In this document: positions 12,885 through 62,047 of the stretch, one piece after another | Layout: every line of letters starts with the position of its first letter | Position numbering within the stretch: position 1 is the stretch's first letter | Assembly (NCBI RefSeq): GCF_031326345.1 | Contig: NZ_CP133671.1 | Span: forward strand, 4,216,001 to 4,280,000 | Reading direction: 5' to 3' | Length of the DNA: 64,000 nucleotides | From: Aureispira sp. CCB-E | GTDB lineage: Bacteria; Bacteroidota; Bacteroidia; Chitinophagales; Saprospiraceae | Position numbers and translations under genes: made by a program | The notes under the pieces: generated by a model | Database searches by the model: none | The model's input: only the letters and a program-made list of their open reading frames with translations | What the model was told of the DNA's origin: nothing

Positions 12885-13024
12885 TACTCCGTTGATTTTT
12901 TAGTTTTCCTACGAAAAACGTAAAAAATCATCTTGCATTAGTTTGATTATCAGCCTTTTAGTATAAAAGTCAACAAAAGTACATCTTACTGATAATCAAA
13001 CTAATACGATTTTTCAACGGAGTA
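12885..13024 (-). repeat. Dispersed palindromic repeat, copy 1 (CCGTTGA subfamily)
   Basis: A 140-bp element bounded by exact 11-bp inverted repeats TACTCCGTTGA (12885-12895) and TCAACGGAGTA (13014-13024). Inside, ATTAGTTTGATTATCAG (12937-12953) is perfectly complementary to CTGATAATCAAACTAAT (12989-13005), giving a 17-bp stem with a 35-base loop. Compared with copies 2, 4 and 5 it lies in the opposite orientation. See copies at 15976, 28591, 29219, 47967 and 61807. Confidence 0.85.
12974..12981 (-). promoter_or_regulatory. Possible -7 box (TACTTTTG on the minus strand) inside repeat copy 1
   Basis: CAAAAGTA on the plus strand reads TACTTTTG on the minus strand, matching TAnnTTTG, and lies about 125 bp upstream of the tricorn gene start. 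It falls in the loop of the palindromic element, so the repeat may supply this gene's promoter. Short motifs occur by chance in AT-rich DNA, so support is weak. Confidence 0.3.
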
Positions 13025-13459
13025 ATGTGTAATAATAGAAACTTCTAAGTTAAAAAATATCTAGCGATAATTGGATTGAGAAAGGGCTTGTTTCGGATTA
13101 CATTCAACATTATCAGACGAACGGCTTGTTATAAACGATGAATTAAGAAAAACTAGTGATAAAAGCTTTCTTTAATCCTCTGCAATCATCGGTACTATCA
13201 GTAGAAACCACACAGCAAATTTGGTTAACAGAAAGAGAAAAAAACACATTTATAGTAGCTTATTTCATGGAGTTATAAACTCCGCTAGTTTCGCTCCTAC
13301 TACCTCGCATTTCAAAAGCATTATAAATACTGATAATCAAAAGGTTAATACAAAATAAAATAAAAACATAAGTCGTTAATTCTTAGGCTTATAAAATTTA
13401 GCTGTGCTGCTACTACATGGTTTCAGCGAACTATTGTTTCAGACTTTGACAAATAATTG

Positions 13460-13467
13460 TATTTTTG
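13460..13467 (+). promoter_or_regulatory. -7 box TATTTTTG upstream of ychF
   Basis: TATTTTTG fits TAnnTTTG; a TTG at 13434-13436 lies 23 bases upstream, within the range reported for Bacteroidota -33/-7 spacing. The ychF ATG is 134 bp downstream. Confidence 0.4.
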
Positions 13468-13600
13468 CAGCAAGTTTTGGCAATAACGTTTCAAATGTTT
13501 CAAAAAACAACTGTCTTTATTAGACATTTTGAAGCATTTATAAATTTTATTAAGTGGCCATTAACTTCTAAATTTGCTAACTATTTAACTTACATACAAC

Positions 13601-14704
13601 ATGGCATTAAAATGTGGAATTGTTGGACTTCCAAACGTAGGAAAATCAACGCTTTTCAATGCACTTTCTTCTGCTAAAGCCTTAGCAGCTAATTATCCTT
13701 TTGCGACCAAAGAACCCAATATTGGTACGATTACAGTACCAGATGAGCGTTTGACAAAATTAGAATCTATTATCAATCCTCAAAAAGTAATTCCTACTAC
13801 TATTGATATTGTGGATATTGCTGGATTGATTCGTGGTGCTAGTAAAGGGGAAGGACTTGGCAACCAATTTTTAGGTAATATTCGTGAAGTAAATGCTATT
13901 GTGCATGTTGTTCGTTGCTTTGAGAATGGTAATATTGTACATGTTGATGGCGATGTAGATCCTGTTAGAGACAAAGAAACGATTGATTTGGAGTTAATTT
14001 TCAAAGATATTGAAAGTGTTGAGAAGCAGATTCAAAAACAAAAAAAGATGGCTAAAGGTGGCGATAAAGCGCTACAAAAATTAGTCGTTATCTTAGAAAA
14101 CTTGTTGAAGCACTTAGAAGATGGCAAACCTGTTCGTAGTTTTGACGATTACGAAACAGAAGAAGCTGAAATTATTATCAAACAATTGCAACTTCTAACT
14201 GCAAAACCCATCATCTATGTTTGTAACGTTGATGAAGATTCTGTTATCTCTGGTAACGAACATACTGAAGCTTTTAAAGAAGCTGTAAAAGATGAAAATG
14301 CAGAAATCATTCTAGTTAGTGCTGCTATTGAAGCTGATATAGCGGAGTTGGATACTTACGAGGAACGCATGGAATTTTTATCTGATTTAGGCTTGACAGA
14401 GCCTGGTGTCAATAAATTGATTCACGCTTGTTATAGTATTCTAAATCTTATCACTTACTTTACTGCTGGAGAAAAAGAAGTACGTGCTTGGACCATTAAA
14501 GTTGGAACCAAAGCTCCCGCCGCAGCTGGTGTTATTCACTCTGACTTTGAGCGAGGATTTATCAAATCCAAAACCGTTGGTTTTGATGATTTTATTGCCA
14601 ACAATGGTTGGAAAGGTGCCCAAGAAACAGGCACTTTGCGTCAAGAGGGCAAAGAATATGTCGTTCAAGATGGCGATTTGTTAGAATTTATGTTTAACGT
14701 ATAG
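13601..14704 (+). CDS. ychF: Redox-regulated ribosome-binding ATPase YchF
   Basis: Obg-family P-loop protein that prefers ATP and associates with ribosomes. G1 loop GLPNVGKS at residues 9-16, G3 DIAG at 72-75, and NVDE at 209-212 in place of NKxD, which is the YchF-specific change that gives ATP preference. The helical insertion follows DIESVEKQIQKQKK, and the C-terminus is the TGS domain ending EGKEYVVQDGDLLEFMFNV. At 367 residues it is full length (E. coli YchF is 363). The gene is monocistronic and followed by a strong hairpin terminator. The ATG at 13601 is fixed by the conserved MALKCGIVGLPNVGKS opening. Confidence 0.97.
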   Translation: MALKCGIVGLPNVGKSTLFNALSSAKALAANYPFATKEPNIGTITVPDERLTKLESIINPQKVIPTTIDIVDIAGLIRGASKGEGLGNQFLGNIREVNAIVHVVRCFENGNIVHVDGDVDPVRDKETIDLELIFKDIESVEKQIQKQKKMAKGGDKALQKLVVILENLLKHLEDGKPVRSFDDYETEEAEIIIKQLQLLTAKPIIYVCNVDEDSVISGNEHTEAFKEAVKDENAEIILVSAAIEADIAELDTYEERMEFLSDLGLTEPGVNKLIHACYSILNLITYFTAGEKEVRAWTIKVGTKAPAAAGVIHSDFERGFIKSKTVGFDDFIANNGWKGAQETGTLRQEGKEYVVQDGDLLEFMFNV

Positions 14705-14723
14705 AATATACTTCGTTTTTTGT

Positions 14724-14772
14724 AAAAAAAAGCGTTGAGAGAATCATTTAGAAATCTTTCAACGCTTTTTTA
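14724..14772. terminator. Bidirectional terminator between ychF and the thioredoxin-like gene
   Basis: A-run plus AGCGTTGA (14724-14738) pairs with TCAACGCT plus T-run (14759-14772). With A-tract and T-tract on either side it can end transcription from both convergent genes. Confidence 0.85.
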
Positions 14773-14781
14773 TTTTAACAA

Positions 14782-15960
14782 TTATTCCCCCTTAATTTGA
14801 GCTATCAAAGCTTCTGTTTCTTTGATGTATTTATTCTCTTTTTTGCTCAGCTCTAACTGTTTATTGGCCACTTCCAAAGCAGCCTCCCGATCTTCTAAGG
14901 CTAGTAGAATCAAAGCTTTGGTTTCTAGAGTTGCGATACTTTCTTCTAACAAAATTGCTCGATCTACCCACTCCAAAGCCGCATTCAATTGCGTTTTACT
15001 TTTACCATATACATCCAACATATAACGAGCGATTCCATTCAAGCTTTTGGCATCCTTGCAATGCTTTTCATATTTGCGAGCCAAACGATAATCTCTGCGC
15101 TCATCTCCACGCTTGCTATAAAAATCAATTCTCGTCTTAAAATACTCTACCCTATCAGGCAAAATTTGTTTTACTTCTTGTAAAAAATCACGAATAACTA
15201 CTTGACTCGAACCATTTTCAATAATTTCATAACAACGAATGTTAAAAGCGGCATCCAAATAACTATCAACTCTATCTATCCCCAAACTTGTGATAAAATC
15301 TGATTTGTTAGCTACGACATAATGATAAGCTCTATGGTTATAATTATTGATACAATGCTCCAGAACATCAAAATGCTCCGCCTCTTTTAGTGCCTCCATC
15401 CCCACCAAATCAATGTATACATCGGCTATATAGGTATAATCTTCTCCAACACGTTTCAATGCTTCAGCATATTTTTTAAGAAAAGCTGGATTATCTTTTT
15501 CCGTTTCAAATTGCTTTTGTAAAGTGTAAATTTGATTTTCAGGCAGTAGAGCTTCTTTGCTTTTAGTAATTAAATCTTCTGCTTTGTAAGCACCAATAAT
15601 TCGGTGTACCAACTCCCCCTCTGCATCAAAATACAACAAAGTTGGATAAGAAGTCACCCTATATTTTTTCGCAAAATCTACTCCTTCTCCTTTTTCTATA
15701 TCCAACTTATAACTAATGTAGTTTTCTTTAAAAAACGCACCGACTTCGGCTTTAGAAAAAGTATTGTTATCCATCCACTTACAAGGCTCACACCAAGAGG
15801 CGTAGGTATCAACAAAAATTGGTTTATTCGAGTCTTTCGCCTTTGCTTTTACCGACTCCCAGTCTACTGCTTCAAAATCAATACCTTGAGCATTTATCAA
15901 TGAGGAAATCATAAACAATGGGGTCGTAAACAGAAAAGTAAGTAAGTAATTTTTCATCAT
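14782..15960 (-). CDS. Exported thioredoxin-fold protein with helical C-terminal half
   Basis: The signal peptide (residues 1-24, cleavage after INAQ) is followed by a thioredoxin-like domain (about 27-130) with the active-site motif WCEPC inside ASWCEPCKWMD and the cis-Pro loop SYPTLLYF. This is the thioredoxin_7/DUF255-like type common in Bacteroidota periplasm, likely a disulfide reductase or isomerase. Residues 135-392 are all-helical and TPR-like (repeated A-L-x-W-V/A pattern, e.g. NAALEWVDRAILLEE and ETKALILLALEDREAAL), a common scaffold attached to such domains. Its target proteins cannot be inferred. Upstream lies palindromic repeat copy 2, so its promoter must be in or next to that repeat. 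Confidence 0.85.
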   Translation of the reverse strand: MMKNYLLTFLFTTPLFMISSLINAQGIDFEAVDWESVKAKAKDSNKPIFVDTYASWCEPCKWMDNNTFSKAEVGAFFKENYISYKLDIEKGEGVDFAKKYRVTSYPTLLYFDAEGELVHRIIGAYKAEDLITKSKEALLPENQIYTLQKQFETEKDNPAFLKKYAEALKRVGEDYTYIADVYIDLVGMEALKEAEHFDVLEHCINNYNHRAYHYVVANKSDFITSLGIDRVDSYLDAAFNIRCYEIIENGSSQVVIRDFLQEVKQILPDRVEYFKTRIDFYSKRGDERRDYRLARKYEKHCKDAKSLNGIARYMLDVYGKSKTQLNAALEWVDRAILLEESIATLETKALILLALEDREAALEVANKQLELSKKENKYIKETEALIAQIKGE

Positions 15961-16285
15961 GGATTGCTTTTACAATAGTTCGTTGAAACCACGCATTAGC
16001 AGCGAAGCTAAACTTTATTAGTTTGATAATCAGCAAGTTGCAACTTTGCTTCGTTTCGTATTAAAGCTTTGGTTATCAAACTAATATAAATGTGCTTTTT
16101 TATTTTTTTGGTAAAAAAGTAAAAAACTAAGCTTGCGCCCTCATGAGCGTAGCGAACTAATCAACGAACTACTACTTTTAATAAAGAAGAATAAAGGCAC
16201 TTTAAAACAACAGATGCATTGTTTTCGTTTCGATAACACTAAAATAAGACCAATTGTTCTAATTCAACGTCATAGAACTGTCATT
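15961..16285. other. Gene-free interval dominated by repeat copy 2
   Basis: Apart from the palindromic element (15976-16171), about 115 bp of AT-rich DNA remains downstream of the VOC-family gene; no hairpin terminator or open frame stands out there. Confidence 0.6.
15976..16171 (+). repeat. Dispersed palindromic repeat, copy 2 (CGTTGA/TCAACG, AGTTCG subfamily)
   Basis: A 196-bp element with exact 11-bp outer inverted repeats TAGTTCGTTGA (15976-15986) and TCAACGAACTA (16161-16171). Inner arms ATTAGTTTGATAATCA (16017-16032) and TGGTTATCAAACTAAT (16070-16085) pair with one G-U-compatible difference. A tail module with TTTTTGGTAAAAAAGTAAAAAACTAAGC (16109-16136) is shared with copies 3-5. Confidence 0.85.
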
Positions 16286-16672
16286 CTAAAGTTTTTCATC
16301 TACGGGCTCCCACAACTCAATCTTGTAACCATCAGGATCCAAAATCCAAGCAAATTTACCATATTCAAAGCTTTGCATTTCTCCTACGATCGTTACGCCT
16401 TCCTCTTTTAGACTAGTCAACAAAGCCTCTAAATCATCTACTCTGTAATTAACCATAAATTCCTGTTCAGAAGGATTAAAGTAAGTTGTATCTTCTGGGA
16501 AGGCATTCCACACCGTATTTCCTTCTTGTTCAGGGTTTTCTTTTTCTAACCACTTAAAAGTTGCCCCATACTGGTCAGACTCTATCCCTAGATGATTTTG
16601 ATACCAATTTTTGCTTTTTTGAGGGTCTTTTGTTTTAAAAAAAATGCCTCCAATTCCTGTTACCCGTTTCAT
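16286..16672 (-). CDS. VOC (glyoxalase/bleomycin-resistance) superfamily protein
   Basis: A 128-residue single-domain VOC protein. The opening GIGGIFFKTKDPQKSKNWYQNHLGI is the standard first beta-alpha-beta unit of the fold, and the end (QSFEYGKFAWILDPDGYKIELWEP) carries the DPDGxxIELWEP motif whose Glu is a usual metal ligand. The central VNYRVDDLEALLTSLKEEGV is the second repeat. Members bind a divalent metal and act on varied substrates, so no reaction is assigned. The gene stands alone on its strand. Confidence 0.85.
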   Translation of the reverse strand: MKRVTGIGGIFFKTKDPQKSKNWYQNHLGIESDQYGATFKWLEKENPEQEGNTVWNAFPEDTTYFNPSEQEFMVNYRVDDLEALLTSLKEEGVTIVGEMQSFEYGKFAWILDPDGYKIELWEPVDEKL

Positions 16673-17056
16673 AGTTATAAAATTTTAAGTTGATAAGTAT
16701 AATAGTTGGTGACACTTAAGAAATACAATGCAGATATCTTTTAATTTAAAATACTAGGATCCAGCAGTTTTACAAGTTTAATGCCTTTTAATAATGACTT
16801 TTTTATTTTAAACTAAATGAACAATTCTTACTTTATTATGTTTGCAAATAAGTGCCTTTAATAAACCTTTACAATTTACCAAAACCAACAAATTATAATT
16901 ACAAAATACACATTTCTTTTATTAGCACCTAAGTAAGTGAGCATAAAAAATTATCGGTAAAAGTTATTGAACACGCATCTCATTTATGAGTCAAACAGTA
17001 ACTTATTATGGTTGCTATATTTTTTTCTAAACATTTACTTATATTCCAGAACTTGT
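16673..17056. other. 384-bp divergent intergenic region
   Basis: AT-rich DNA between the divergent VOC and MATE genes. It contains a -7-like box at 16837 for the MATE gene. I see no repeat copy or open frame worth annotating. Confidence 0.5.
16837..16844 (+). promoter_or_regulatory. -7-like box TATGTTTG upstream of the MATE gene
   Basis: Fits TAnnTTTG, about 210 bp before the chosen MATE start. No good -33 element is seen, so this remains a candidate. Confidence 0.3.
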
Positions 17057-18433
17057 ATGCAACCCAATAATCTAAGTACAGAAAAAAAATCCAACGAATT
17101 AGGCACCGAGACAATCGACAAATTGATTGCCAAGCAAGGAATTCCAGCTGCAATTGGTTTTTTAGTCATGTCTATCTATTTGATTGTCGATACTATCTTT
17201 GTAGGGCATTGGGTTGGTGCCATGGGAATTGGAGCTATCTCAGTTGTCTTACCTGTTACATTTTTAATCGCCTCTATTGGAATGTCGATAGGAATTGGAG
17301 GCGCCTCAATCATTTCTAGAGCATTAGGTGCAAACGACAACCAACACGCACAACAAGTCTTTGGCAATCAGATCACATTAAACATGTCTATTGCTACCTT
17401 TTTTGTTATCATGGGAATGATTTTCAAAGAAGAGTTATTAATGATCTTTGGTGCCAAAGACGACATCATGCCCTTTGCCAAAGAATACTTCACCATCATA
17501 CTGCTAGGCATACCTTTTTTGTCGTGGGGAATGATGAGCAACCATGTTATTCGAGCACAAGGTTTTCCCAAAATAGCTATGAATGTAATGCTTGTTCCTG
17601 CTATCTTAAATTTAGTGCTAGATCCTATTTTTATCTATTGGCTTGATTGGGGAATGCAAGGAGCTGCTTTGGCTACTATTTTTTCGTATTTTGTAAGTGC
17701 TAGTTATACCATTTGGTTCTTTGTAAAAGGCGATAGCGATTTGAGAATTAGTAAAAAAAACTTAGTCCTACATTGGTCCATTATTTCTGAAATTATCTCT
17801 TTGGGTTTTGTCTCCTTAGCACGCCAAGGAGTGATTAGTATCTTGGCTATTGTCCTCAACCACTCCTTATATACTTATGGACGTAGCGAAATTTATATTT
17901 CGGTCTATGGAATTATCAATCGTGTTATGATGTTCGCTATGTTCCCAATCACAGGAATTACACAAGGTTTTTTACCTATTACCAGTTATAATTATGGCGC
18001 AAAAGAATACCATCGTGTCAAAGAAACCATTCGAAAATCAATTATTTATGGAAGCTTAATTGCGATTCTTATATACATCTGTATTCTGTATTTTCAAGTT
18101 ACAATTGTTAAACTTTTCTCTACCAACAAAGAGATTTTAGCAATTACTCCCGAAGCTATGGCGATTGTATTTATGGCAATGCCTTTGATACTCATACAAT
18201 TGATTGGTTCTTCCTACTATCAAGCTATCGGGAAAGCCGTCCCTGCGTTATTACTAACCTTAACCAAACAAGGTTTTTTCCTCATCCCATTGGTTTTTAT
18301 ACTTCCTCGTTTTTGGGGGATTAATGGCATTTGGTATGCTTTTCCTATTGCAGATGTTTTGTCAATGTTGGTAACCGCTATTTTCCTATGGAGGGCTTAT
18401 CGTCAACTGGGCACCCCTTCTAAAATAGAATAA
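17057..18433 (+). CDS. MATE-family multidrug/organic cation efflux transporter
   Basis: Twelve-helix antiporter of 458 residues. The N-terminal half carries the family's PAAIGFLVMSIYLIVDTIFVGHWVGAMGIGA region in helix 1 and the following GGASIISRALGA; the second half repeats the fold (FPITGITQGFLPITSYNYGAK is the typical helix-8 motif QGxxPxxxxNYGA). An upstream TTG at 16967 extends the frame, but the ATG at 17057 (MQPNNLSTEKK) gives a normal short cytoplasmic N-terminus. The substrate is unknown; MATE pumps are driven by Na+ or H+. It is a single gene, convergent with the next gene 33 bp away. Confidence 0.92.
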   Translation: MQPNNLSTEKKSNELGTETIDKLIAKQGIPAAIGFLVMSIYLIVDTIFVGHWVGAMGIGAISVVLPVTFLIASIGMSIGIGGASIISRALGANDNQHAQQVFGNQITLNMSIATFFVIMGMIFKEELLMIFGAKDDIMPFAKEYFTIILLGIPFLSWGMMSNHVIRAQGFPKIAMNVMLVPAILNLVLDPIFIYWLDWGMQGAALATIFSYFVSASYTIWFFVKGDSDLRISKKNLVLHWSIISEIISLGFVSLARQGVISILAIVLNHSLYTYGRSEIYISVYGIINRVMMFAMFPITGITQGFLPITSYNYGAKEYHRVKETIRKSIIYGSLIAILIYICILYFQVTIVKLFSTNKEILAITPEAMAIVFMAMPLILIQLIGSSYYQAIGKAVPALLLTLTKQGFFLIPLVFILPRFWGINGIWYAFPIADVLSMLVTAIFLWRAYRQLGTPSKIE

Positions 18434-18466
18434 TACGAATAACTAAAAAACAAACAGCCTGCTGAA

Positions 18467-19375
18467 CTAATACAATGCCGTATTATTTCCTTGTATCTGA
18501 AAGAACAATTTAGCAGGTCGAACTTTTTGTCCTTCTTCGTACAAATATTGTTTTCCTTCGGTGTCGATCATTGGAATATGTGGATCTGTTAATAAAAAGG
18601 AATCGTGAATCAATAGATTTTGAAAAGCATTTCTTACTTGATCTGCATCAACCCCTAGCGTTGCCCCTAAATATTGCCCAAAACCTAGATACTGTTCTAT
18701 TCCTATTGCCAATACGCCAGCACTTTTTTCTTGATACAAAACATCTTTCATGGCTCGATAACCATATTTCGCAGGAAATTGCTTTGATTTCATGGTAATG
18801 CTTCCTGGACCGTAGGGATCGGCTGTCCAAGCAATATTAGCAATCGAAATTTGAGTATTTTGTATTCTATAATATAAACCAACCGCTCCAGTTCTGTGCT
18901 TATCCTCTTGAAAAAATGCCAAAAAATCATTTTCCATCAACAAACTAAAACCATAAATTCCAAAACCAAATGTCCCAGTTAATTGAGAAGTTTTTATATT
19001 ATCCAAATAAAAATTATAGCTATAACCAATGGAATATGGGCGACTTGTTTGGTTGCTAATTTCATGAATAAAAGGACTATAATGCACCGAATCTTTAGCT
19101 CCAAAAGCAGCTACAACTCCCACTCTAAGCTGCCCCTCCCAAGAAGGAATTTCTGTTGCAAAAGAACGTGGATTGTAATAACCTGCTAGTTGTAAATTTG
19201 CTTGTATGTATTCGTAATGGAAATAAACCTTTGCGATCAAACCAATTCGGTTAAAATGGCTTCCCAAATTAAAAGAAAAACCAATCTGCCCGCCAAAACC
19301 TTGTCCAAAATCCAGTTGGGCAGTTGCACTACATGTTATCAAAAAAAAGAACGTTGACAAAAAAAATTGCTTCAT
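18467..19375 (-). CDS. Secreted beta-strand-rich protein, possibly of the polymorphic toxin type 23 family
   Basis: The product is 302 residues, with a Sec signal (residues 1-19, cleavage after ATAQ). The rest alternates aromatic and glycine residues (GQGFGGQIGFSFNLGSH, YSIGYSYNFYLDN, TGTFGFGIYGFSLL), suggesting beta-strands. The stretch GLYYRIQNTQISIANIAWTADPYGPG, with FPAKYGYRAMKD after it, resembles the domain called bacterial toxin 23 in Bacteroidota, but I recall this only loosely and give it low weight; an outer-membrane barrel is the alternative. It starts 4 bp after the stop of the B3/B4-domain gene, so the two form an operon with this gene second. No immunity gene is recognisable. 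Confidence 0.5.
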   Translation of the reverse strand: MKQFFLSTFFFLITCSATAQLDFGQGFGGQIGFSFNLGSHFNRIGLIAKVYFHYEYIQANLQLAGYYNPRSFATEIPSWEGQLRVGVVAAFGAKDSVHYSPFIHEISNQTSRPYSIGYSYNFYLDNIKTSQLTGTFGFGIYGFSLLMENDFLAFFQEDKHRTGAVGLYYRIQNTQISIANIAWTADPYGPGSITMKSKQFPAKYGYRAMKDVLYQEKSAGVLAIGIEQYLGFGQYLGATLGVDADQVRNAFQNLLIHDSFLLTDPHIPMIDTEGKQYLYEEGQKVRPAKLFFQIQGNNTALY

Positions 19376-19379
19376 CAGA

Positions 19380-20042
19380 TTACTCGATAATTAAAGTTTG
19401 GCAATCCGTTGCATTCGTATATTCCTCATACAAGCTCTTGGTCTGTATCAAACTATCTTTTAAAGTGGCATGATTTCCAAAGTTTAGAAAAACCATCAAA
19501 AAAGAACTTGTATTTTCTGTCACCATCGTTCGAGTAGAGTCGCTCGTTGGCGTACCAAAAGCCCCTTTGTTATCTCTAAAAACAGGCAAATGTTCAATAT
19601 TTAAATCTCCCTTTCCTATCCCCTCATAAAGTTCTCCTTTTGCACCTATTCCCAACACAATATCCCCCTCTATTTTTGCAGCATCATAGCCTCCTATCGA
19701 ATATCCCGTCTTTATGGAAATTAAATTCAATGTATCTACAATCGTATTAATTTGATACAATCCCTTTCCAGAGACTACTCGCCTTAATAAAGCCTCTGCC
19801 GATAAACGATAACGGCTAGGATCTTTTCCCAAAGCCTTGTAAGCTGCTCTAGAAGAAGCGATCGCTTCAATTTGACTGACCTCTGGTCTAGTCAACTCTT
19901 GAGCCAAAGAAGCGCAAGTATCTTGTATTTTTTTTTCGAGTCCTTTTGAACTAGCCTCCCAAGTCAATTGACAAGAGAAGCAGCCCAAAACCAAATCAGG
20001 GCATTTTTTTCTTATTTCTGGAGCAATAGAAATATTATTCAT
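19380..20042 (-). CDS. B3/B4 (tRNA-synthetase editing-like) domain protein
   Basis: A free-standing B3/B4 domain as found in the beta subunit of phenylalanyl-tRNA synthetase, here 220 residues. Recognisable parts are RAAYKALGKDPSRYRLSAEALLRRV, the YQINTIVDTLNLISI helix, and the glycine-rich GGYDAAKIEGDIVLGIG. Such stand-alone proteins are proposed to hydrolyse mischarged tRNAs or related aminoacyl esters, but the function is not proven. First gene of a two-gene unit with the beta-rich secreted protein downstream (4-bp gap). Confidence 0.85.
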   Translation of the reverse strand: MNNISIAPEIRKKCPDLVLGCFSCQLTWEASSKGLEKKIQDTCASLAQELTRPEVSQIEAIASSRAAYKALGKDPSRYRLSAEALLRRVVSGKGLYQINTIVDTLNLISIKTGYSIGGYDAAKIEGDIVLGIGAKGELYEGIGKGDLNIEHLPVFRDNKGAFGTPTSDSTRTMVTENTSSFLMVFLNFGNHATLKDSLIQTKSLYEEYTNATDCQTLIIE

Positions 20043-28571: not shown

Positions 28572-28590
28572 TACTATTTATAACTTACAC

Positions 28591-28898
28591 TACTCCGTTG
28601 AAAAATCGTATTAGTTTAGCTGCGCTGCTACTTCGTGGTACTTCGTGAGCGCTTTGCTTTTAGTTAGCTGCGCTGCTACTACGTGGTATTTCATGAGTGC
28701 TTCGCAGTTGATTAGTAGCAAGATACGCCTATGTCAATCTTTGCACTAAAAAACTGATAATCAAAATAATGCAAGATACTTTTTTATATTTTTACTTCGT
28801 AAGTCTACGGGTTCTTAGAAAAACTAAAAAACTAAGCTTGCGCCCTCACGACCGCAGGGAGCTACCACGAAGTAGCACCGCAGGTAATCAACGGAGTA
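28591..28898 (+). repeat. Dispersed palindromic repeat, copy 3 (CCGTTGA subfamily, expanded)
   Basis: A 308-bp element with the outer repeats TACTCCGTTGA (28591-28601) and TCAACGGAGTA (28888-28898). The first 27 bases are identical to the reverse complement of the right end of copy 1. The inner stem is broken: the left arm runs into two tandem copies of the module TAGCTGCGCTGCTACT (28617 and 28665, each continuing to 23 bp), while the right arm CTGATAATCAAA remains near 28757. The distal part carries the AAAACTAAAAAACTAAGCTTG module of copies 2 and 5. Confidence 0.8.
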
Positions 28899-28922
28899 TT
28901 AAACTTATTGATATAAAAACAT

Positions 28923-29031: not shown

Positions 29032-29469
29032 TCAAATTCGATACATTGAAATGCCATATAGACACTTCCCTTGATGAATTTTTCCTACTATCTGATTATT
29101 ATCCTCTCTCTCAAAAAGAAAAAATGTATCTTCCTTTATTTTCCAAGTACCGCATTGAGCTCCTATTGTTCGGAGACAAAATGTAGAATCTGGATACATT
29201 TCAAATTGATAGGAACAATAGTTCGTTGAAAACTTTATTAGTTTGATAATCAAAACACTAGTGCATTTCGTGCTGGTGTTTTGGTTATCAAACTAATATG
29301 AATGTGATTTTTTATCTTTTTGGTAAAAAATAAAAACCAACGAACTACTAATAGGAAAAACACTACTATTATAATAACCCGCCATAGATGCCTTTTTTTT
29401 CTCTGAAAAAAGCAAACAACTCCCTAGAAGGCTGCTCATTAAAACGACTATACCTATGCTTCTTTTCAT
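29032..29469 (-). pseudogene. Small lipoprotein gene split by palindromic repeat copy 4
   Basis: The 5' part starts with ATG at 29469 and encodes a lipoprotein signal (MKRSIGIVVLMSSLLGSC) followed by about 22 residues ending MAGYYNSSVF. Repeat copy 4 then interrupts, bringing an in-frame TAG (reading ...SHSY then stop). On the other side the same register continues as YCSYQFEMYPDSTFCLR ... GTWKIKEDTFFLFE to a TGA at 29032. GTWK and YPDSTF are typical of small Bacteroidota lipoproteins whose products contain a G-x-W-x-x-x-x-D core, so both halves look like one former gene of about 100 residues. The 135 or so inserted bases leave both halves in the same codon register. The ATG inside the repeat (29253) could still allow expression of the 3' half without a signal. 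Function unknown. Confidence 0.7.
29219..29347 (+). repeat. Dispersed palindromic repeat, copy 4, inserted in a lipoprotein gene
   Basis: A 129-bp element with outer repeats TAGTTCGTTGA (29219-29229) and CAACGAACTA (29338-29347). Inner stem from ATTAGTTTGATAATCA (29237) to its complement ending at 29297 continues through CAAAACAC/GTGTTTTG to a loop of about five bases, giving a nearly 29-bp hairpin with only wobble-type differences. A 7-bp direct repeat ATAGGAA lies just outside each end (29209-29215 and 29351-29357) and might be a target duplication. Confidence 0.85.
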
Positions 29470-37066: not shown

Positions 37067-37115
37067 CTTCGTGGCTTTTTTAGTTTTTTACAAAAAAGCT
37101 AAAAAAGCCACGAAG
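37067..37115. repeat. Long perfect hairpin related to the dispersed repeat modules
   Basis: CTTCGTGGCTTTTTTAG (37067-37083) is exactly complementary to CTAAAAAAGCCACGAAG (37099-37115); the intervening TTTTTTACAAAAAAG extends the stem after a G-U-type position. It lies upstream of the ADP-ribosylglycohydrolase start. The left arm resembles the TACTTCGTGG start of repeat copy 6. Confidence 0.7.
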
Positions 37116-47925: not shown

Positions 47926-47966
47926 AACTTCCTATAACAATAGTTAGCTGCGCTGCTACTACATGG

Positions 47967-48154
47967 TCGTTGAAAAACTTTATTAGCTTGATAATTAATA
48001 AGTTACAAATTCACTACACTTGTGCTAAAGCATTAATTATCAAGCTAATAAAGTTTATTTTTTGTTTTTTTTGGTAAAAAAGTAAAAAACTAAGCTTGCC
48101 GAGTAGGCTTGTGCTAGTAGCACAAAAGCCCAAGGTCATGAACATAACGAACTA
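47967..48154 (+). repeat. Dispersed palindromic repeat, copy 5
   Basis: A 188-bp element, outer ends TCGTTGA (47967-47973) and ACGAACTA (48147-48154). Inner arms ATTAGCTTGATAATTAAT (47982-47999) and ATTAATTATCAAGCTAAT (48032-48049) are a perfect 18-bp palindrome. Compared with copies 2 and 4, the left arm has C for T (AGCTTG versus AGTTTG) and the right arm has the matching G for A. The TTTTTGGTAAAAAAG tail module is present after the stem. Confidence 0.85.
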
Positions 48155-48270
48155 CTACTAAAGGTTATGTAAGTAAATTTTGTATGAAGAATGAAAAATG
48201 ACCGTTAACGGAGATTAGGTAATGATTTAGCTCGCAGGCTCGTGAGAGAGTTCTGCGTAGCTTTGCGTCC

Positions 48271-48302
48271 GAACTAGCTTGGCGAAGCATGCAAGCTAGT
48301 TC
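48271..48302. repeat. Isolated 11-bp hairpin in non-coding DNA
   Basis: GAACTAGCTTG (48271-48281) pairs exactly with CAAGCTAGTTC (48292-48302), loop of ten bases. No T-tract follows, so it is not a normal terminator. Confidence 0.6.
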
Positions 48303-48494
48303 AGTAAACAAGCAGTAAAAATCATCTAATCGCAGTGTTGGGTCTTGATTTTGCTTCTTTTATCAAGAAAAGAAGAACAGACGAGTAAACTATTCCATAG
48401 TGTTAAAAATCAAAAGACATAGTAACGGTTCTCATAACTTTTTACATGCATAACCTTTACTACAAAACATCTCTTTAAAAACACAAACACTGTT

Positions 48495-49657: not shown

Positions 49658-50350
<693 letters not shown>

Positions 50351-57500: not shown

Positions 57501-57683
57501 ATAAGTTTTACTATTTCCATCAAAATTTATGGCTACAGGTTTTGTGTGTTTAGATTTAAACCCTGCTTCTACATTTATGTTTTTAGGTTTAGAGTGATCG
57601 TTCATACGAACAAACTCTTTGCCCTCTTTTTCTTTATTTTTATTTAAATTATTACCGTTGGTAAGGTCATTTGGATTAGCCAT
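51591..57683 (-). CDS. Giant GY-repeat protein (about 2030 residues), unknown function
   Basis: Largest gene in the window; I do not recognise a family. Residues about 1-330 are low complexity (Pro/Thr/Gly, then Lys/Glu-rich), probably disordered, with a repeated NTSGGL motif (near 94, 113 and 131) and no signal peptide. From about 330 to 1555 a motif Y/F-x2-G-Y/F-x2-G recurs at least 17 times, irregularly spaced: YIQGYNEGYREG (406), FNQGYRQAQ (515), YEQGYQLG (540), GYNKGYAQ (589), FNQGYRQG (707), YFVGYRNGY (908), LARGYSSGY (997), YQEGYRAA (1115), YIKGYQAK (1338), YKTGYLEGIKVG (1402), YKQGFDDGQSKG (1436), LLGYDRGLLGG (1514). Residues 1560-1850 are helical (coiled-coil-like KKLKRLEKELKEG at about 1809), and the last 100 (FYLDHYAENVHIENAEIL) are beta-rich. 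The ATG at 57683 (MANPNDL) is preferred over 57695. Cytoplasmic or exported by an unrecognised route. Convergent with bioF; transcribed alone. Confidence 0.85.
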   Translation of the reverse strand: MANPNDLTNGNNLNKNKEKEGKEFVRMNDHSKPKNINVEAGFKSKHTKPVAINFDGNSKTYAIGEGSLQKKSQYTDWETVKKIESNPKINTSGGLSGTPPTVKNKLNTNTSGGLKSKPVGTTNPQKNTGGGLGVAPSTYVPPTPKGPMPNVTPSPTPKNIAPPTETTEKVAPKQTGTVPSGTTGTPDSQKKEAPKEKKEAPKGIFASDKLKGVLGILAQKDKNENGAVPTGQPDKDGAKQIGQAKNALTKKKKSTTTFSGTTNTTSVGGTSTPKTTEPKKEEKKEERKEDPKAKALAAFDVKETDEEIKEDAEAENIKNEGKNRGLMVGRSLGYGAKLTPAAGGKFSITKFSESDDPAEEETAKNKYDRVNTEIAKNMEEYGTEEKPESGVGTPMKGYYDAYIQGYNEGYREGETLKAEAAAAERTAQMEKEQGSEEYKVGASLGMTCGVLLAKGEKNVDTKFSMTKDGKYHEVIVKTTVAELENAASEKKQTPGGELSGPAYEKAFLLHFNQGYRQAQNQRKQAPKMDENYKATYEQGYQLGVQQANGESGAPDLLKLEKTFEGKDERELKGADMQRYRGFYAGYNKGYAQVQEGKKNKAKAEREAKYKKPNFVAGYSTGNLKGFLSAMIESSGIDLLTALNDPDQMEAAGVPKYFPIPDELRESIKATLIFGEVADKENESNPTKALLGKPLFKEGLLMGFNQGYRQGQNSRVAFKRDKHKMHPDYQRSILVLMPSDESTYAGPTETGNVAKGFTMGQLLANAEFEKNELLTKNSRSKEEEKRLTDLTKAIDALNGVVGAESSYYKLGVDEYFNWWTKELIKKAQTKKQEEGYAGAENSPKRKGFNWGLKVGAKVIEGKEKLKELNRKGRDIKSRSAQLNAAIKASEKEAKVTSKNQGGEDYFVGYRNGYNHAFRVAKEGKKSDKGNLDTDDLFENASGKGSYLVKEIYDKVITKVNLGGNLTESALRKGVESAHSKFKGKTQEAFEDGLARGYSSGYSTYVVDAKTGKPENNTKEDEAQIRDQYKTYKGMKTEDGKLQYAGDMGAGMLYFFLIGYQYHNKDKSTLKYGLPKGKADAESFNLGYRVAEEESKGGKIADRSGEATSKAAYQEGYRAAKYQARYNAFKKGMIRSIAGEKTATGASGNHKKGKEETAKGNDKGGGLLERLGGFISKLGTDPTLEESVTDASLTGGLAELAEKENVDLNKEKEDKERFYLQGNNDATSLWTKIIYMRKGVKLEGVNIPKEITFRYLEGEADLEAGETVTITDSTDLAVINDFYGKKDDYIKKIANYYIEENYTKDVFLSIFSLDFSTLGDALQGYDKSKEKAKEAYIKGYQAKVASIESNYKDKFMQDWLQDYGYYMGITEMAPETAIEVPSAPYAQMSGDEIDYESSYYKTGYLEGIKVGVLIKNGVIQPSDADLATASGDEYKQGFDDGQSKGREQGALDAQEPHKEPPSRREIVQQLDDDYRRKNKGKHDAMNYDYKSAYVKAYFEAYWTNRDYEYGKLLGYDRGLLGGDAMFNVEPEDGVRIDDKDAFFKGVDEGRSVAIAGLPKEALYGAKGKSGATPKSPLGVIQKITAKYAERNAAIDAVHELKLSEKIIRKIVYSQDPFYSRYKKLNTIKALGVGEQSMGSLGELLVYYEVKDLTVVSDYLDEGFNKYLNYSFADLSEDERVSCWQSFESSYKEAYQIARAQSLAELNAVAMTAALDKRKEVSSGGMGGEIDNGLGESGNSILNVLKDLLFGDSQDFYLDDLLLLDMFFALETKVEEVQYHIEDDLREIEVNQMLAEMGEDESLKEDLKKLKRLEKELKEGNLSPGESLSKEMSINILKAEIESKRANQQQIYHDWQAAEAAAKEKIDSIRLLMKDSLAFDTPLESNEDILTYIKINLESSEGNREDIYEDIDIFNDLVLSGLYTYKESDAIEASVLGSGNFYLDHYAENVHIENAEILMQQNGFEIKARGLSYVKSANELTFMSGSLVTPSIEGGAHMGQQYQYNFDDFSVNLNEGVKSQMDAQKYKLQGGPL

Positions 57684-57923
57684 GTAGGATATCAATTAGT
57701 CTAGAAAAAAGTGTGTTGCATGCTCCCATTTAAACAAAAACAAAATGAGCCAGCTAATACAGCATTAAATTACAAATAAAATGTAACTTTGCCAAACAAT
57801 ATTTTCATAAGTCATCTCTTTTTTAAGTTTTTGATATTTGCTCTAAAAATAGTTTTTTTATAGCCCTATTTATCAGCACTTAACACCTTGTGGCTTTTTA
57901 ATTCTAATGCATATTTTTTTACT

Positions 57924-58412
57924 GTGAAAATTACAACATCTAGTTTTTTAATACTATCCATACTACTCACCACTCCTTCCTTCTTATCCGCCCAAACTCC
58001 TGTCAATGTACATTACATTGATTTAGATGATTTATTGTTCTATGTATTGCCATTTTATGCCATCACTATTTTAGGCTTGGGTTTATTTATTCATAAATTA
58101 ATGCGCCCTAACTTCTCGTCTAAATGGCTATATATATGTAGTTTAATTGGCATCTTAGGAGCTGCGGCTATTGCTTATAAGTTTCAAGAAATTCGTACAA
58201 CTCAGTTGCCAAGTGCGCAACCTTCTAAGATTGACATGCGTAATATTCCCAAGGATATTCAAGAACAAATAAGAGCAAGAGAAAATGATGAGTTGAAAGA
58301 AACAATTGCCAATTATTGGGTAGTCGCTATTCCAAACTTTATTCTATTAGGACTTGGTTTGGCAATTGATTGGAGAAACAAGAAAGATTATGAATTAAAA
58401 GACAACTCATAA
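57924..58412 (+). CDS. Small multi-pass membrane protein, unknown
   Basis: A protein of about 162 residues with a signal-like first helix (VKITTSSFLILSILLTTPSF, then LSAQ) and three further hydrophobic stretches (LLFYVLPFYAITILGLGLFI, WLYICSLIGILGAAAIAYKF, WVVAIPNFILLGLGLAIDW). A soluble, charged loop (KIDMRNIPKDIQEQIRAREN) sits between helices 3 and 4. No family recognised. The start is uncertain: the frame extends up to a TTG at 57888, and the GTG at 57924 is preferred because it starts the signal-like helix directly. A hairpin follows at 58428. Confidence 0.55.
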   Translation: MKITTSSFLILSILLTTPSFLSAQTPVNVHYIDLDDLLFYVLPFYAITILGLGLFIHKLMRPNFSSKWLYICSLIGILGAAAIAYKFQEIRTTQLPSAQPSKIDMRNIPKDIQEQIRARENDELKETIANYWVVAIPNFILLGLGLAIDWRNKKDYELKDNS

Positions 58413-58427
58413 ATCCCTCTTATCACA

Positions 58428-58482
58428 AAGCCTGCTTTGCATTTCAGATCAAGAGATCGTATTAAAAATACAAAGCAGGCTT
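58428..58482. terminator. 12-bp stem hairpin between convergent small membrane genes
   Basis: AAGCCTGCTTTG (58428-58439) pairs exactly with CAAAGCAGGCTT (58471-58482), loop of 31 bases. It lies between two convergent genes and is placed like a two-way terminator, though the T-tracts are weak. Confidence 0.5.
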
Positions 58483-58509
58483 ATCGAATTATTGAGCAGA
58501 TAAGTTTGG

Positions 58510-58929
58510 TTAACGCAAACGGTTAGAATCACGAACCAATTTGTCATCTTTTTGAATTCCTTTATTGGCTAAGATAATTAAAATCATTACCAATACGGGC
58601 ATAAACAAACCTCCTCCAACAGTTGCAATTGATTGAATGGTGTAAAACAAGTAAGCAGCAAAAGCAAACAACCCTGCTGTAATCAAAATATTAAGCTTGC
58701 CTAAATTCATTTGCAATTTTCGATTGTTGTACAAGAAAATCGTGACAAATGATAGCAAAACCACTAAAACGGTCAAAATAATTAAAGCGATATTATCATT
58801 AATATTTAGATAACCATCAGCCAAGACTCCTTCTGATTTAACAGGACCACTAGCAAATGGAAGTGCAAACAAGGAACTTCCTACCAAAGATGCTAATAAT
58901 AAGTAAACAGATTGAATGCGTTGTATCAT
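58510..58929 (-). CDS. DUF4293-family small membrane protein
   Basis: A protein of about 139 residues with four transmembrane helices. The opening MIQRIQSVYLLLASLVGSSLF and the later LYNNRKLQMNLGKLNILIT match the DUF4293 family of Bacteroidota (typically MIQRIQTVYLLL... and NRKLQ). Function is not established. The ATG at 58929 is chosen because MIQRIQ is the family's conserved start; the frame extends upstream to 58977 through an unrelated sequence. Confidence 0.85.
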   Translation of the reverse strand: MIQRIQSVYLLLASLVGSSLFALPFASGPVKSEGVLADGYLNINDNIALIILTVLVVLLSFVTIFLYNNRKLQMNLGKLNILITAGLFAFAAYLFYTIQSIATVGGGLFMPVLVMILIILANKGIQKDDKLVRDSNRLR

Positions 58930-59116
58930 GTTTTCTTTTAATTTTTTATGATAAGTAGTCGGACACAAAACAAACATATGACGTAATTTCTTCTGTGTTC
59001 ATTTACTTATATTGTAGATTATAATAAAAATCAAATACTGAACAAGCTTGCCTATTAGTTGTTATAAGATTCAAAACAATTCTCGCTAGACATTTCCTTT
59101 GCTCTACTATGTTTAA

Positions 59117-59124
59117 TACCTTTG
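59117..59124 (+). promoter_or_regulatory. -7-like box TACCTTTG before the thiolase gene
   Basis: TAnnTTTG match, with a TTG at 59099-59101, 15 bases upstream (slightly shorter than usual). It lies 70 bp before the ATG at 59194 and overlaps the alternative TTG start at 59122, so that start cannot be used if transcription begins here. Confidence 0.4.
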
Positions 59125-59193
59125 AACTCCTTTTTGCGAAAAGGTCACTTCAATATTAAAATAAACTCTCGCAAAATTAATATTTTGCTTCAA

Positions 59194-60375
59194 ATGAACA
59201 ATAAAAATCAAACAATATACATCATAGATGCTCTAAGGACACCAATAGGAAAACTACATGGAGCACTATCACATATCCGCCCCGATGACTTAACAAGCCT
59301 ACTTATCAAGGGGTTAGTTAATAAAAACGCTATTAATAAAGAAGAAATAGATGGCATTATCCTCGGTTGTGCGAATCAGGCTGGCGAAGATAATAGGAAT
59401 ATAGCCAGAATGGCTAGTCTATTAGCAGGACTCCCTTACGGCTCTACAGCCACTACCATTAATAGTCTTTGTTCTTCGGGAATGGAAGCCATGCTAAATG
59501 CAATAAAAAATATTGCCCTTGGGGATGGTGATTTGTATTTAGCTGGAGGCGTAGAAAGCATGAGTAGAAGCCCAATGGTTACAAGCAAAGTAGATCAAAC
59601 GACAGTAGATAGCCTTATTGGCTGGCGATTCGTTAACCCCAATATACAGCAAGCTTGTCCTCCTTTGTCGATGGCTGAAACAGCGGAGTTATTGGCTCAA
59701 AAATATGCTATTTCTAGAGACCAACAAGACTTATACGCTTATCACAGCAGACAAAAATACCAAGCTGCTCTCGAAAAAAACATCTGGCGATCAGAGATAC
59801 TAGCTTTGGCAGATCAAAAAAAGAAGCTTTGGCGATTAGACGAACAACACCGCCTTTTATCTTTGGACTTGTTAACTAAATTACCTACATTAGTTTCTAA
59901 TGGGGCTCATATTAGCTCAGGGAATGCGGCTAGAATCGGCGATGGAGCAGCTTTGGTTGCTTTTGCTTCGAGAAAATACATTCGCAAACATAATATTCAA
60001 CCTATTGCAAAAGTAAAAGCATGGGCAAGTGCCTCGTGTCATCCTAGCGAAATGAGTCTTTCGGCTGTGGTAGCAGCACAAAAAGCTTTGAATAAAATTG
60101 ATTTAAAAACCAATGATCTCGACTGGATTGAAATGAGTGAATCTTTTGCTGTTCAGACTTTGGTTTGCATCCAAGAACTGGGACTAGATCCTCAAAAAGT
60201 AAATCCAAACGGAGGGGCATTGACCATTGGCAATCCTATTTCTGTGAGCTCTGCTCGATTGGTTGTTTCTCTGGCAAAAGAGATGCAACGGAATAAAAAA
60301 ATCAAGTATGGATTGGCGACAACTTGCGCTGGTTTGGGTACAGGAACCGCTTTGATTTTAGAAGCTCATAATTAG
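59194..60375 (+). CDS. Thiolase-family protein with altered catalytic residues
   Basis: A 393-residue thiolase (acetyl-CoA acyltransferase fold). The start MNNKNQTIYIIDALRTPIG, LCSSGMEAM with the nucleophilic Cys93, GGVESMSRSP, and the end TTCAGLGTGTAL with the second Cys378 are all conserved. Two of the other catalytic positions are not: the NEAF motif reads SESFA (Ser315 for Asn), and the GHP motif with the active-site His reads GNPIS (Asn347 for His); SGAR following it reads SSAR. A standard thiolase needs that His to activate the first Cys, so activity is doubtful or different. The ATG at 59194 is chosen over the TTG at 59122 on motif and promoter position. Single gene; no 3-hydroxyacyl-CoA dehydrogenase partner nearby. 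Confidence 0.88.
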   Translation: MNNKNQTIYIIDALRTPIGKLHGALSHIRPDDLTSLLIKGLVNKNAINKEEIDGIILGCANQAGEDNRNIARMASLLAGLPYGSTATTINSLCSSGMEAMLNAIKNIALGDGDLYLAGGVESMSRSPMVTSKVDQTTVDSLIGWRFVNPNIQQACPPLSMAETAELLAQKYAISRDQQDLYAYHSRQKYQAALEKNIWRSEILALADQKKKLWRLDEQHRLLSLDLLTKLPTLVSNGAHISSGNAARIGDGAALVAFASRKYIRKHNIQPIAKVKAWASASCHPSEMSLSAVVAAQKALNKIDLKTNDLDWIEMSESFAVQTLVCIQELGLDPQKVNPNGGALTIGNPISVSSARLVVSLAKEMQRNKKIKYGLATTCAGLGTGTALILEAHN

Positions 60376-60445
60376 AGTAGTCATTCACAGGTTATCGCTC
60401 CAAATCCGCACAAAACACCTTGTGTGTATATTTGATTAAAGAACA

Positions 60446-61696
60446 ATGATTAAGAAGCTATTTAATAATATAAAGGCAAAAGTTCTTCCAGTTGTACATT
60501 ATATTTACAACCACCCCTTAGTACATCCTATTATACATCCAATATATACTATTCTTAGCAATACCATACAAAGTTACAACGATCACAAGGTATTTCGTTT
60601 AGGAGCAGCACTAGCCTATTACACTATTTTTTCCTTGCCAGCACTTATTATTGTAATTGTTGGTTTGGTTGGCTTTTTCTTAGGAGAAGCCGCTGTTCAT
60701 GGAGAAGTCTATCTTTTTTTGGTCGAATTTGTTGGACCAGAGGCTGCCAAACAAGTAGAAAATGCCGTGATCAACATCGGTACTCCAGATACCAATTGGT
60801 GGGCAACTGTTATTGGTATAGGGGTTCTTATTTTTGTTGCTACAGGTGTTTTTTATGCCCTCCAAGATACTTTAAATCATATTTTTGAAGTCAAACCAGT
60901 TCCTACAAGAGTTCGAGTATTGGAAGTGCTTATCAATCGGGTACTTTCTTTGGGAGTTGTACTAAGTATTGGTGGTTTGCTTCTTTTATCCATTGTTCTC
61001 AATGCATTACTCTTAGAAATGAGTAATTTCATTAGTGGCAACAAAGCCTTTTTGCACGACACACTTCCTGATTTCTTCATTCCTTATATGGAATATTTGA
61101 CCGATTATTTTTTAGTATTCTTAAATCTTGGCATTTCTGTTTTTTTGGTCACCTTATTTTTTGCTATGCTATATAAAATTCTTCCCGCAGTCAAATTACA
61201 GTGGAAATATATCTGGTTAGGTGCCTTTTTTGCTGCCATACTATTTTGGATTGGGCAATTGGTCATGGGAATCTATTTGAGCAAGACTAGTGTCATTTCA
61301 GCCTACGGTGCTGCGGGGTCTATTATTGTCATCTTAATTTGGGTTTCCTATTCTTCTCAATTAGTCTTTTTGGGGGCAGAATTTATTATTGCTGCTTGTA
61401 ATTACAACGACGTTGAAATCAAACCCAAACGATTTGCTAGAGCACTGCAAAAGACTCGCCGCAAAAAGATAATCAAACAAATTGCTCGCAAACAGCTAGA
61501 AGATCTTTCTAATGATTTCTTGATAGCAGCTCCACCTTCATATACCAAACTCCGAGAAGCTAATGAGATGGCAAGTGTAGAAAACCTTCCCAACCCTCCT
61601 GCTCCCGATCCTCAACAAGAGGACATAAGTAAAAACATCAAATCCAATGAAGAACTTGGATTCAATTCGGATAAAAACATTGATTTAACCAAATAA
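60446..61696 (+). CDS. YihY/BrkB-family membrane protein
   Basis: An integral membrane protein of 416 residues with six helices in the YihY/virulence-factor-BrkB family (sometimes called ribonuclease BN by error). Family signatures: LGAALAYYTIFSLPALIIVIVGLVG (first helix), the VFYALQDTLNHIFEVKP segment, GVVLSIGGLLLL, KLQWKYIWLGAFFAAILFWIGQ, and SAYGAAGSIIVILIWVSYSSQLVFLGAEF near the C-terminus. Residues about 320-416 form a basic then Pro/Asn-rich cytoplasmic tail. Function in this family is not established (proposed transport or sodium tolerance). A TATATTTG (60427) lies only 12 bp before the ATG, so a very short leader is possible. Confidence 0.9.
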   Translation: MIKKLFNNIKAKVLPVVHYIYNHPLVHPIIHPIYTILSNTIQSYNDHKVFRLGAALAYYTIFSLPALIIVIVGLVGFFLGEAAVHGEVYLFLVEFVGPEAAKQVENAVINIGTPDTNWWATVIGIGVLIFVATGVFYALQDTLNHIFEVKPVPTRVRVLEVLINRVLSLGVVLSIGGLLLLSIVLNALLLEMSNFISGNKAFLHDTLPDFFIPYMEYLTDYFLVFLNLGISVFLVTLFFAMLYKILPAVKLQWKYIWLGAFFAAILFWIGQLVMGIYLSKTSVISAYGAAGSIIVILIWVSYSSQLVFLGAEFIIAACNYNDVEIKPKRFARALQKTRRKKIIKQIARKQLEDLSNDFLIAAPPSYTKLREANEMASVENLPNPPAPDPQQEDISKNIKSNEELGFNSDKNIDLTK

Positions 61697-62047
61697 GATT
61701 GATATGATCTTAAAGTTTCAATTGGAATGATAATTGATTTTTAGGTTAAAATCGTATTTTTACTACTGTCATAACATCAACTTTATTTTCCATATACTTT
61801 ATTGAATACTTCGTGGATTTTTTCGTTTTTTACAAAGAACAAAAAGCAATTTTTCATCAATCTGATTATCAATATTTTAACCATTCAAACCCTAAGAAAC
61901 ACATCTTATTGATAATCAACTGCGCAGTACTCACAAAGTAGCACGTAGTAGCAATATAACTAAAAGCGCAGTGCTCACGAAGTGAACTGATGCGCTTTTT
62001 ACCCGAAGTAATGTTATTAAAAAACACACGCAAACGATTTCATCATT
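61697..62047. other. 351-bp intergenic region with repeat copy 6
   Basis: Between the YihY and MORN-caspase genes. Contains the degenerate palindromic element at 61807-62010 and no open frame. Confidence 0.6.
61807..62010 (-). repeat. Dispersed palindromic repeat, copy 6 (degenerate)
   Basis: A 204-bp element with short outer repeats TACTTCG (61807-61813) and CGAAGTA (62004-62010). Inner arms TGATTATCAAT (61863-61873) and ATTGATAATCA (61908-61918) pair exactly. The order of modules (GGATTTTTTCGTTTTTTAC, arm, CATCTTATTGATAATCA) parallels copy 1 read on the same strand. The right part contains GTAGTAGC and GCGCAGTGCTCACGAAGT modules seen elsewhere in the family. Confidence 0.65.

Follow-up and report, generated by a model that had tools for sequence, protein, structure and literature searches.

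Which elements are the dispersed palindromic sequences found between the genes of a 64,000-nucleotide stretch of the Aureispira sp. CCB-E chromosome (NZ_CP133671.1, positions 4,216,001 to 4,280,000, hereafter the window), and why do copies with the same kind of ends range from 129 to 308 bp? An earlier note on this sequence had listed at least six of them, with this range of lengths, and had proposed either a non-autonomous mobile element or a structured RNA family. We found that the main copies are miniature inverted-repeat transposable elements (MITEs). The range of lengths was confirmed, and the differences come largely from the exact presence or absence of short sequences of 20 to 36 bp, here called micro-inserts, a second layer that the note had missed. 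It is likely, in our judgement, that both layers are parasitic, hairpin-forming DNA, the MITEs and the smaller micro-inserts inserting independently.

The genome under study (labelled G000) comprises 7.39 Mb in two contigs. Its sampled part consisted of the window, 99 stretches of 20 kb from the chromosome and one from contig C2, corresponding to 2.064 Mb with 1,107 N. MITE A and MITE B designate the two end types, C a third repeat family and E a further, diverged type. The micro-inserts were named alpha (22 bp), beta (22 bp), gamma (34 or 36 bp), delta (26 bp), epsilon (20 bp) and beta-prime (22 bp, ACCACGAAGTAGCACCGCAGGT).

Copies of the MITEs were found throughout the genome, clearly above reversed-motif controls. 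Counting itself, the window copy at 15976 matches its own genome at least 45 times, 40 of 513 first-look candidates having been scored. The A end word AGTTCGTTGA occurs 307 times against 38 for its reversed control, and the B end word ACTCCGTTGA 158 times against 15; halving the excess over control gives a very rough estimate of 135 copies for A and 70 for B. In the sample, 96 convergent end pairs were detected (57 A and 39 B, some of which overlap or arise by chance), compared to 14 with reversed motifs. Target duplications were then sought in the pairs with at most one mismatch per end. Of the 39 A pairs, 18 have an exact 6-bp duplication 3 bases outside the terminal inverted repeats (TIRs), as do 19 of the 28 B pairs; shuffled flanks gave 0.53 and 0.89, respectively. 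At least 5 of the 6 positions match in 38 of the 56 copies taken from fetched loci, some of them from the own genome (shuffle mean 2.7). As the duplications sit 3 bases outside the TIRs, the full ends are therefore CAATAGTTCGTTGA..TCAACGAACTACTA for A and CATTACTCCGTTGA..TCAACGGAGTATTA for B. No clear duplication length could be assigned to C (17 pairs) and E (10 pairs). Out of 62 close end pairs, a single one falls largely within an open reading frame (ORF) of at least 90 amino acids, and the arrangement of the genes next to the MITEs is like that found around intergenic DNA in general. With their TIRs, their constant 6-bp duplication and no coding capacity, A and B form a real family of MITEs. 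Minimal B elements also exist, 26-bp pairs with little beyond the two ends, one of which (L055:16590-16615) is bordered by an exact 6-bp duplication, ATATTT; this suggests that ends alone can be mobilised.

The proposal of a non-autonomous mobile element is thus well supported. MITE B recurs in three further Aureispira genomes, which brings the count to 4 of 8 genomes of the genus, and exact beta is carried by the same four. The MITE core is conserved in other Aureispira genomes, and MITE B was not found in 52 relatives, save for one weak partial match. Of 81 A and B elements in the own-genome sample, 54 are co-oriented with the leading strand (p = 0.0036). Among the six copies that had been listed, those at 12885, 15976, 28591 and 29219 do have the TIRs ascribed to them (with one mismatch in the outer TIR at 29219) and an inner stem around GATAATCA/TGATTATC, but their ends reach 3 bp further out and are flanked by the 6-bp duplications. 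The copy at 47967 is a MITE A that starts at 47938, its left TIR being interrupted by a 22-bp insert (CAATAGTT, 22 bp, then CGTTGA). That at 61807 has other ends (TACTTCGTGGA) and belongs to a further, diverged type. Both orientations had been announced for each subfamily; B has both, but the three A copies of the window share a single one.

The note had seen no transposase with matching ends, and neither did we. None of 1262 end pairs spaced by 0.5 to 5 kb in own-genome DNA had matching 6-bp flanks. In 3.36 Mb, 1 of 536 end pairs had 6/6 flanks, formed by a MITE B end and an E-type end; the ORF between them looks peroxiredoxin-like by eye. Those repeated long sequences of the sample whose ends were inspected end differently from the MITEs. 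This negative result is partial, since the DNA examined covers about 28% of the genome plus the fetched loci.

To describe the second layer, 54 A and 19 B near-full copies were aligned to assembled empty cores. This gave 102 insertion rows of at least 12 nt (one copy, in L009, is counted twice, and a handful of rows are unrelated or stem from split or misplaced alignments), which mostly hold the same 20-36-bp GC-rich sequences at a few sites. Beta occupies positions A15 and B15, and alpha A28 and B28; arrays that begin with alpha are found at A83. Gamma (34 or 36 bp) lies at or near A130 and B130 and also at A117, and epsilon at B112. Two B copies carry an 82-bp compound insert at B83. Beta also interrupts TIRs. 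In repeat C, delimited by TAAGTAATCGTTCA ends, a filled site made of TATAA, the 22 bp and AAACAACC stands beside the empty TATAAAAACAACC. Beta is the commonest of the inserts: its word CCACGNAGTAGCAGCGNAGCTA has 196 matches in the own genome and none for the reversed control; two other genomes, G001 and G003, hold 80 and 33 exact copies. Tolerating up to 5 mismatches, 113 beta-like matches were recovered in the sample, compared to 0 with the reversed motif and 3 with one shuffled motif, and 4 of the 113 lie inside an ORF of at least 90 amino acids. Two or more modules are combined in 46 of 207 arrays, as nested or stacked insertions. Written in module letters, the arrays form prefix series at one left context (a, ab, abd, abdb; b, bd; G, GB; g, gB), and the combinations Bg, zd, zdb, gd, db and gb are present as well. 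AA directly follows 168 of the 207 arrays. In the genome at large, triloop hairpins with a GNA loop and AA behind them slightly exceed the Markov expectation (197 vs 153 for GTA, 188 vs 160 for GCA).

Mini-hairpins of the form C(GNA)G or C(GNNA)G can be read in the 22-mers, in the 20-mer and in some of the longer inserts. Beta in particular reads CCxC-GNA-Gx'AG followed by CAyC-GNA-Gy'TA, hence two C(GNA)G hairpin units of 11 nt. Compensatory changes were examined for beta and alpha. Mutual information was calculated on 67 distinct 22-mers, all of them selected for a G.AG reading in either loop. Among 190 column pairs, the two highest values correspond to the beta stem pairs 3-9 (1.05) and 14-20 (0.75), for which the shuffled maximum was 0.26; the third-ranked pair, 1-11, reached 0.27. 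Columns 3-9 comprise 50 A-T, 6 T-A, 5 C-G and 4 G-C pairs, and columns 14-20 comprise 44 G-C, 9 C-G and 6 A-T pairs. At 209 sites whose other 16 positions are exact, the first pair (x-X) is A-T in 200, T-A in 5, C-G in 2 and unpaired in 2, and the second (y-Y) is G-C in 189, C-G in 17, A-T in 1 and unpaired in 2. When the four stem positions were left free in a sample of the class, 8 of the 394 genomes other than the own one had matches, and the reversed control gave 0 of 395. The 14 matches concerned (10 distinct 22-mers, three of the matches being identical copies in one genome) have complementary letters in 28 of 28 stem pairs. In the unselected sample, which has 71 sites with the loops left free, 69 first loops and 59 second loops are GNA, and 65 sites have complementary letters in both stem pairs. 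The second stem pair of alpha is CG in 18 cases, TA in 15 and TG in 3. An alternative 4-bp stem for beta, TAGC/GCTA, was discarded as it does not covary (mutual information of 0.04 for columns 11-20). The stems of beta are shown by covariation, on which the case for its fold, as predicted from sequence, rests.

Beta is not restricted to Aureispira. A scan of genome contigs for CCACGNAGTAGCAGCGNAGCTA returned at least 120 loci where about 0.5 chance matches were expected by our own arithmetic. Among the matches listed, 39 have non-Aureispira titles, all from Bacteroidota; they include the isolates Neolewinella antarctica, N. lacunae, Faecalibacter rhinopitheci and Parapedobacter tibetensis, the other titles being mostly metagenome bins, whose names may be wrong. 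The exact word was absent from 32 relatives outside the genus. In 87 non-Aureispira loci, 61 sites were identified, 40 of which have distinct flanks. None of these 40 has an A or B end word within 300 bp, and an A precedes the insert in 39 of them and follows it in 38. In five genomes (G430-G434), a repeat site between AAAAAGAANCA and AAAA is filled in 20 cases and empty in 28, one of the inserts being a single 11-nt unit; the filled count may be inflated by amplification of filled repeats, as in G432 (10 of 12 copies filled). At one locus (L308, genome G439), beta-prime occupies the 3' end of a 449-codon open frame, right before the next start codon. In viral contigs, no exact beta was detected; 3 relaxed matches were, 2 of which (L339 and L340) pair in both stems (T-A, A-T), a number too small to interpret, and a control pattern two letters off the true reversed relaxed pattern gave 0.

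The following mechanism would account for both layers. MITEs of about 146 bp when empty, which have imperfect TIRs of 14 bp around a long internal hairpin and are flanked by a 6-bp duplication of the target, would be moved by a transposase acting in trans. The micro-inserts of 20 to 36 bp, present or absent exactly beside an A and with no distinguishable target duplication longer than 1-2 nt, would be copied along with any repeat that contains them and apparently shuffled among its copies by gene conversion, as the Aureispira data support. Independently of any repeat, they would also enter unrelated sites, as the flank-distinct sites of other Bacteroidota support; since gene conversion explains spread within a family only, insertion is the simplest explanation of the unrelated sites in other genera. 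Between donor and site, a folded single strand would most likely be joined next to an A, possibly by host repair enzymes alone. This strand may be single-stranded DNA (ssDNA), because the GNA and GNNA loops are those of extra-stable, nuclease-resistant DNA mini-hairpins. According to PMC4686876, mini-hairpins with such loops and at least two G-C pairs resist nucleases and melt near 78 C (GCGAAGC). Hairpin 2 of beta has two G-C pairs and follows this rule. In a more radical version, the 22-mers would be self-sufficient single-strand parasites, persisting as ssDNA oligonucleotides that their two C(GNA)G mini-hairpins protect from nucleases, and captured beside an A by replication or repair enzymes, with the TAA end as microhomology and no dedicated transposase. 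We regard this version as doubtful; if true, it would describe an element selected only for surviving degradation.

Several results weigh against the two-layer mechanism. In the sample, 91 of the 113 beta matches either have an A, B or C end word no more than 300 bp away or sit in a split TIR; of the other 22, most look like decayed MITEs by eye and a few like chance. The exact beta word was found in none of 391 other genomes of the phylum sample. Beta has no strand bias in the own-genome sample (61 vs 52), where the counts were 18 vs 27 for alpha, 16 vs 12 for gamma1 and 7 vs 2 for gamma2, and the sites outside Aureispira have no preference for hairpin loops relative to control AA sites (p = 0.85 and 0.93). 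As to the fold, the energies of the isolated oligonucleotides are unremarkable, the program favours a different 4-bp stem for beta, and hairpin 1 of beta, mostly with one A-T and one G-C pair, falls below the two-G-C rule of PMC4686876. The adverse results further include the strain comparison and the searches for an enzyme described below.

It could be that micro-inserts are immobile alone, old modules of a few repeat families spread only by repeat transposition and ectopic recombination. In favour of this stands the comparison with Aureispira sp. CCB-QB1, of which 46 loci chosen for holding beta gave 33 alignments of at least 600 bp (113 kb, median identity of 99.4% with the own genome). Seven distinct indels of at least 15 bp were found, five of which are exactly modules (22, 22, 22, 34 and 36 bp) and lie at orthologous MITEs, one overlaps beta-prime and one is unrelated. 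Substitutions are about 7 times denser within the MITEs (119/3,844, or 0.031) than outside (489/109,291, or 0.0045, counting genes as outside and keeping overlapping alignments), and because they coincide with the inserts, presence or absence between strains can be gene conversion. In two of the aligned pairs, one gamma is replaced by another gamma. From these alignments, ectopic gene conversion appears to shuffle inserts among the Aureispira MITE copies. Immobile modules would also agree with the insertion positions 15, 28, 83 and 130 that A and B share, and with the repeat of G432, whose high filling could result from amplification. They fit poorly, however, with the occurrence of beta in repeat C and at the 40 flank-distinct sites outside the genus, away from any A/B end word and with no shared flank for recombination, and with stems that covary across genomes. 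We therefore think it improbable that micro-inserts owe all their spread to the repeats, and retain independent insertion alongside gene conversion.

Another possibility is that the hairpins resemble repetitive extragenic palindromic (REP) sequences and REPINs (REP doublets forming hairpins), and are moved by a REP-associated (RAYT) or IS200-type tyrosine transposase. Short hairpin DNA with no clear target duplication would suit it, and the Y1_Tnp domain has a match in G006 and in 11 of 15 other beta-bearing genomes (9 above the cut-off). Yet no Y1_Tnp match was obtained in G000, G001 and G003 despite their numerous exact copies, and beta is absent from the 2.1-3.3 kb retrieved at each of 8 Y1 loci. 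An IS200/RAYT mover is thus not supported, and this explanation, largely refuted, keeps very little probability. A reverse transcriptase fares no better as a candidate. RVT_1 matches 14 of 20 genomes with a distribution that does not track beta, being present in G002, which lacks exact beta, and not found in the beta-bearing G001, G006 and G436 (fragmented assemblies). As none of the Y1, RVT_1, hairpin-loop and strand-bias tests gave support, the insertion mechanism is one that we infer.

Finally, the earlier note had proposed a structured RNA family as its second reading. A family of this kind, or a regulatory one such as terminators, riboswitches or small RNAs, in place of mobile DNA could explain the long conserved hairpin with its T-rich tail, and the covarying mini-hairpins could act as RNA, but it is hardly credible in view of the 6-bp duplications at the ends, the absence of Rfam matches at gathering score in the window and 7 loci, the intergenic-like arrangement of neighbouring genes and the identical 22-mer in very different contexts.

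The independently inserting micro-inserts that we favour have a possible counterpart in cyanobacteria. The small dispersed repeats (SDRs) of Nostoc and relatives, reportedly the subject of Elhai et al. in 2008, are said to measure about 21-27 nt, to be nested in each other and in minitransposons, and to share a secondary structure with compensatory changes; their mobility was reportedly proposed. Judged on this description, the micro-inserts resemble SDRs by their size, nesting, filled and empty sites and, for beta and alpha, covarying fold. Beta and alpha (22 nt), epsilon (20 nt) and delta (26 nt) fit a size near 20-27 nt, and gamma (34-36 nt) does not. In contrast to SDRs, reported from one cyanobacterial subgroup, beta occurs in several orders of Bacteroidota and consists of twin C(GNA)G units of 11 nt. 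To our knowledge, the means by which a 22-bp sequence could be moved have been an open question since cyanobacterial SDRs were proposed. The MITEs alone would be an ordinary new family; the micro-inserts, if mobile, would rank with the smallest known pieces of mobile DNA. Numerous copies in a second phylum, with cleanly filled and empty sites, a covarying two-hairpin fold and close strains that differ by inserts, make a tractable system for learning which enzyme is required and whether a DNA or an RNA intermediate is involved.

Other known systems are less close. REPs and REPINs (PMC3116915, PMC3733652) are short, mostly intergenic, hairpin-forming and multicopy sequences associated with RAYT transposases. 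Beta shares these four traits, but its stems of 2-3 bp and loops of 3 nt differ from the 6-13-bp stems given there for GTAG families, its two hairpins are in tandem, and the tyrosine transposase searches found none associated with it. A bacterial MITE, that of P. gingivalis with a minisatellite, is described in PMC4596501. A and B are like bacterial MITEs in their TIRs, target duplication, lack of ORF and many intergenic copies; they differ by the 6-bp duplication, by the discrete micro-inserts in many copies and in that no parent insertion sequence (IS) was found. No report of the present elements was found in the open-access literature, subscription papers lying outside that search. The features of the window are given in Table 1.

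Table 1. MITE copies and nested micro-inserts of the window (window positions; dup., target duplication)
Feature	Position	Strand	Details
MITE B, empty core	12882..13027	-	140 bp between TIR edges; dup. TGTAAT 12877-12882 and 13028-13033, left end shifted by 1 nt
Decayed MITE A end with beta insert 13400-13421	13400..13438	-	
MITE A, CAATAGTTCGTTGA..TCAACGAACTACTA	15973..16174	+	196 bp between TIR edges; dup. CTTTTA 15967-15972 and 16175-16180
Beta micro-insert, 22 bp, twin C-GNA-G hairpins	15988..16009	+	within MITE A copy 15973..16174
Gamma micro-insert, 34 bp	16125..16158	+	within MITE A copy 15973..16174
MITE B with seven micro-inserts	28588..28901	+	308 bp between TIR edges; dup. AACTTA 28582-28587 and 28902-28907
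Array alpha-beta-delta-beta (minus-strand order)	28618..28709	-	alpha 28688-28709, beta 28666-28687, delta 28640-28665, beta 28618-28639
Epsilon micro-insert, 20 bp	28792..28811	-	
Gamma then beta-prime ACCACGAAGTAGCACCGCAGGT	28830..28885	+	gamma 28830-28863, beta-prime 28864-28885
MITE A, short, insert-free	29216..29350	+	129 bp between TIR edges; dup. ATAGGA 29209-29214 and 29351-29356, left end shifted by 1 nt
MITE A, left TIR split by beta (47946-47967)	47938..48157	+	no clear target duplication; partly by reading the sequence
Diverged E-type element, TACTTCGTGGA end	61807..62010	-	alpha 61918-61939 and delta 61958-61983; no clear target duplication

Three further sequences of the window were noted beside these features. 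A near-perfect palindrome, CTTCGTGGCTTTTTTAG..CTAAAAAAGCCACGAAG, at 37067-37115 resembles a minimal E-type element. A GC-rich stretch at 48228-48303 adjoins the MITE A copy that starts at 47938 and ends in an inverted repeat, GAACTAGCTTG..CAAGCTAGTTC. An IS-like sequence at 8055-9532, with four further copies in the sample, has AACATGAGTCATCCC as its ends, different from those of the MITEs.

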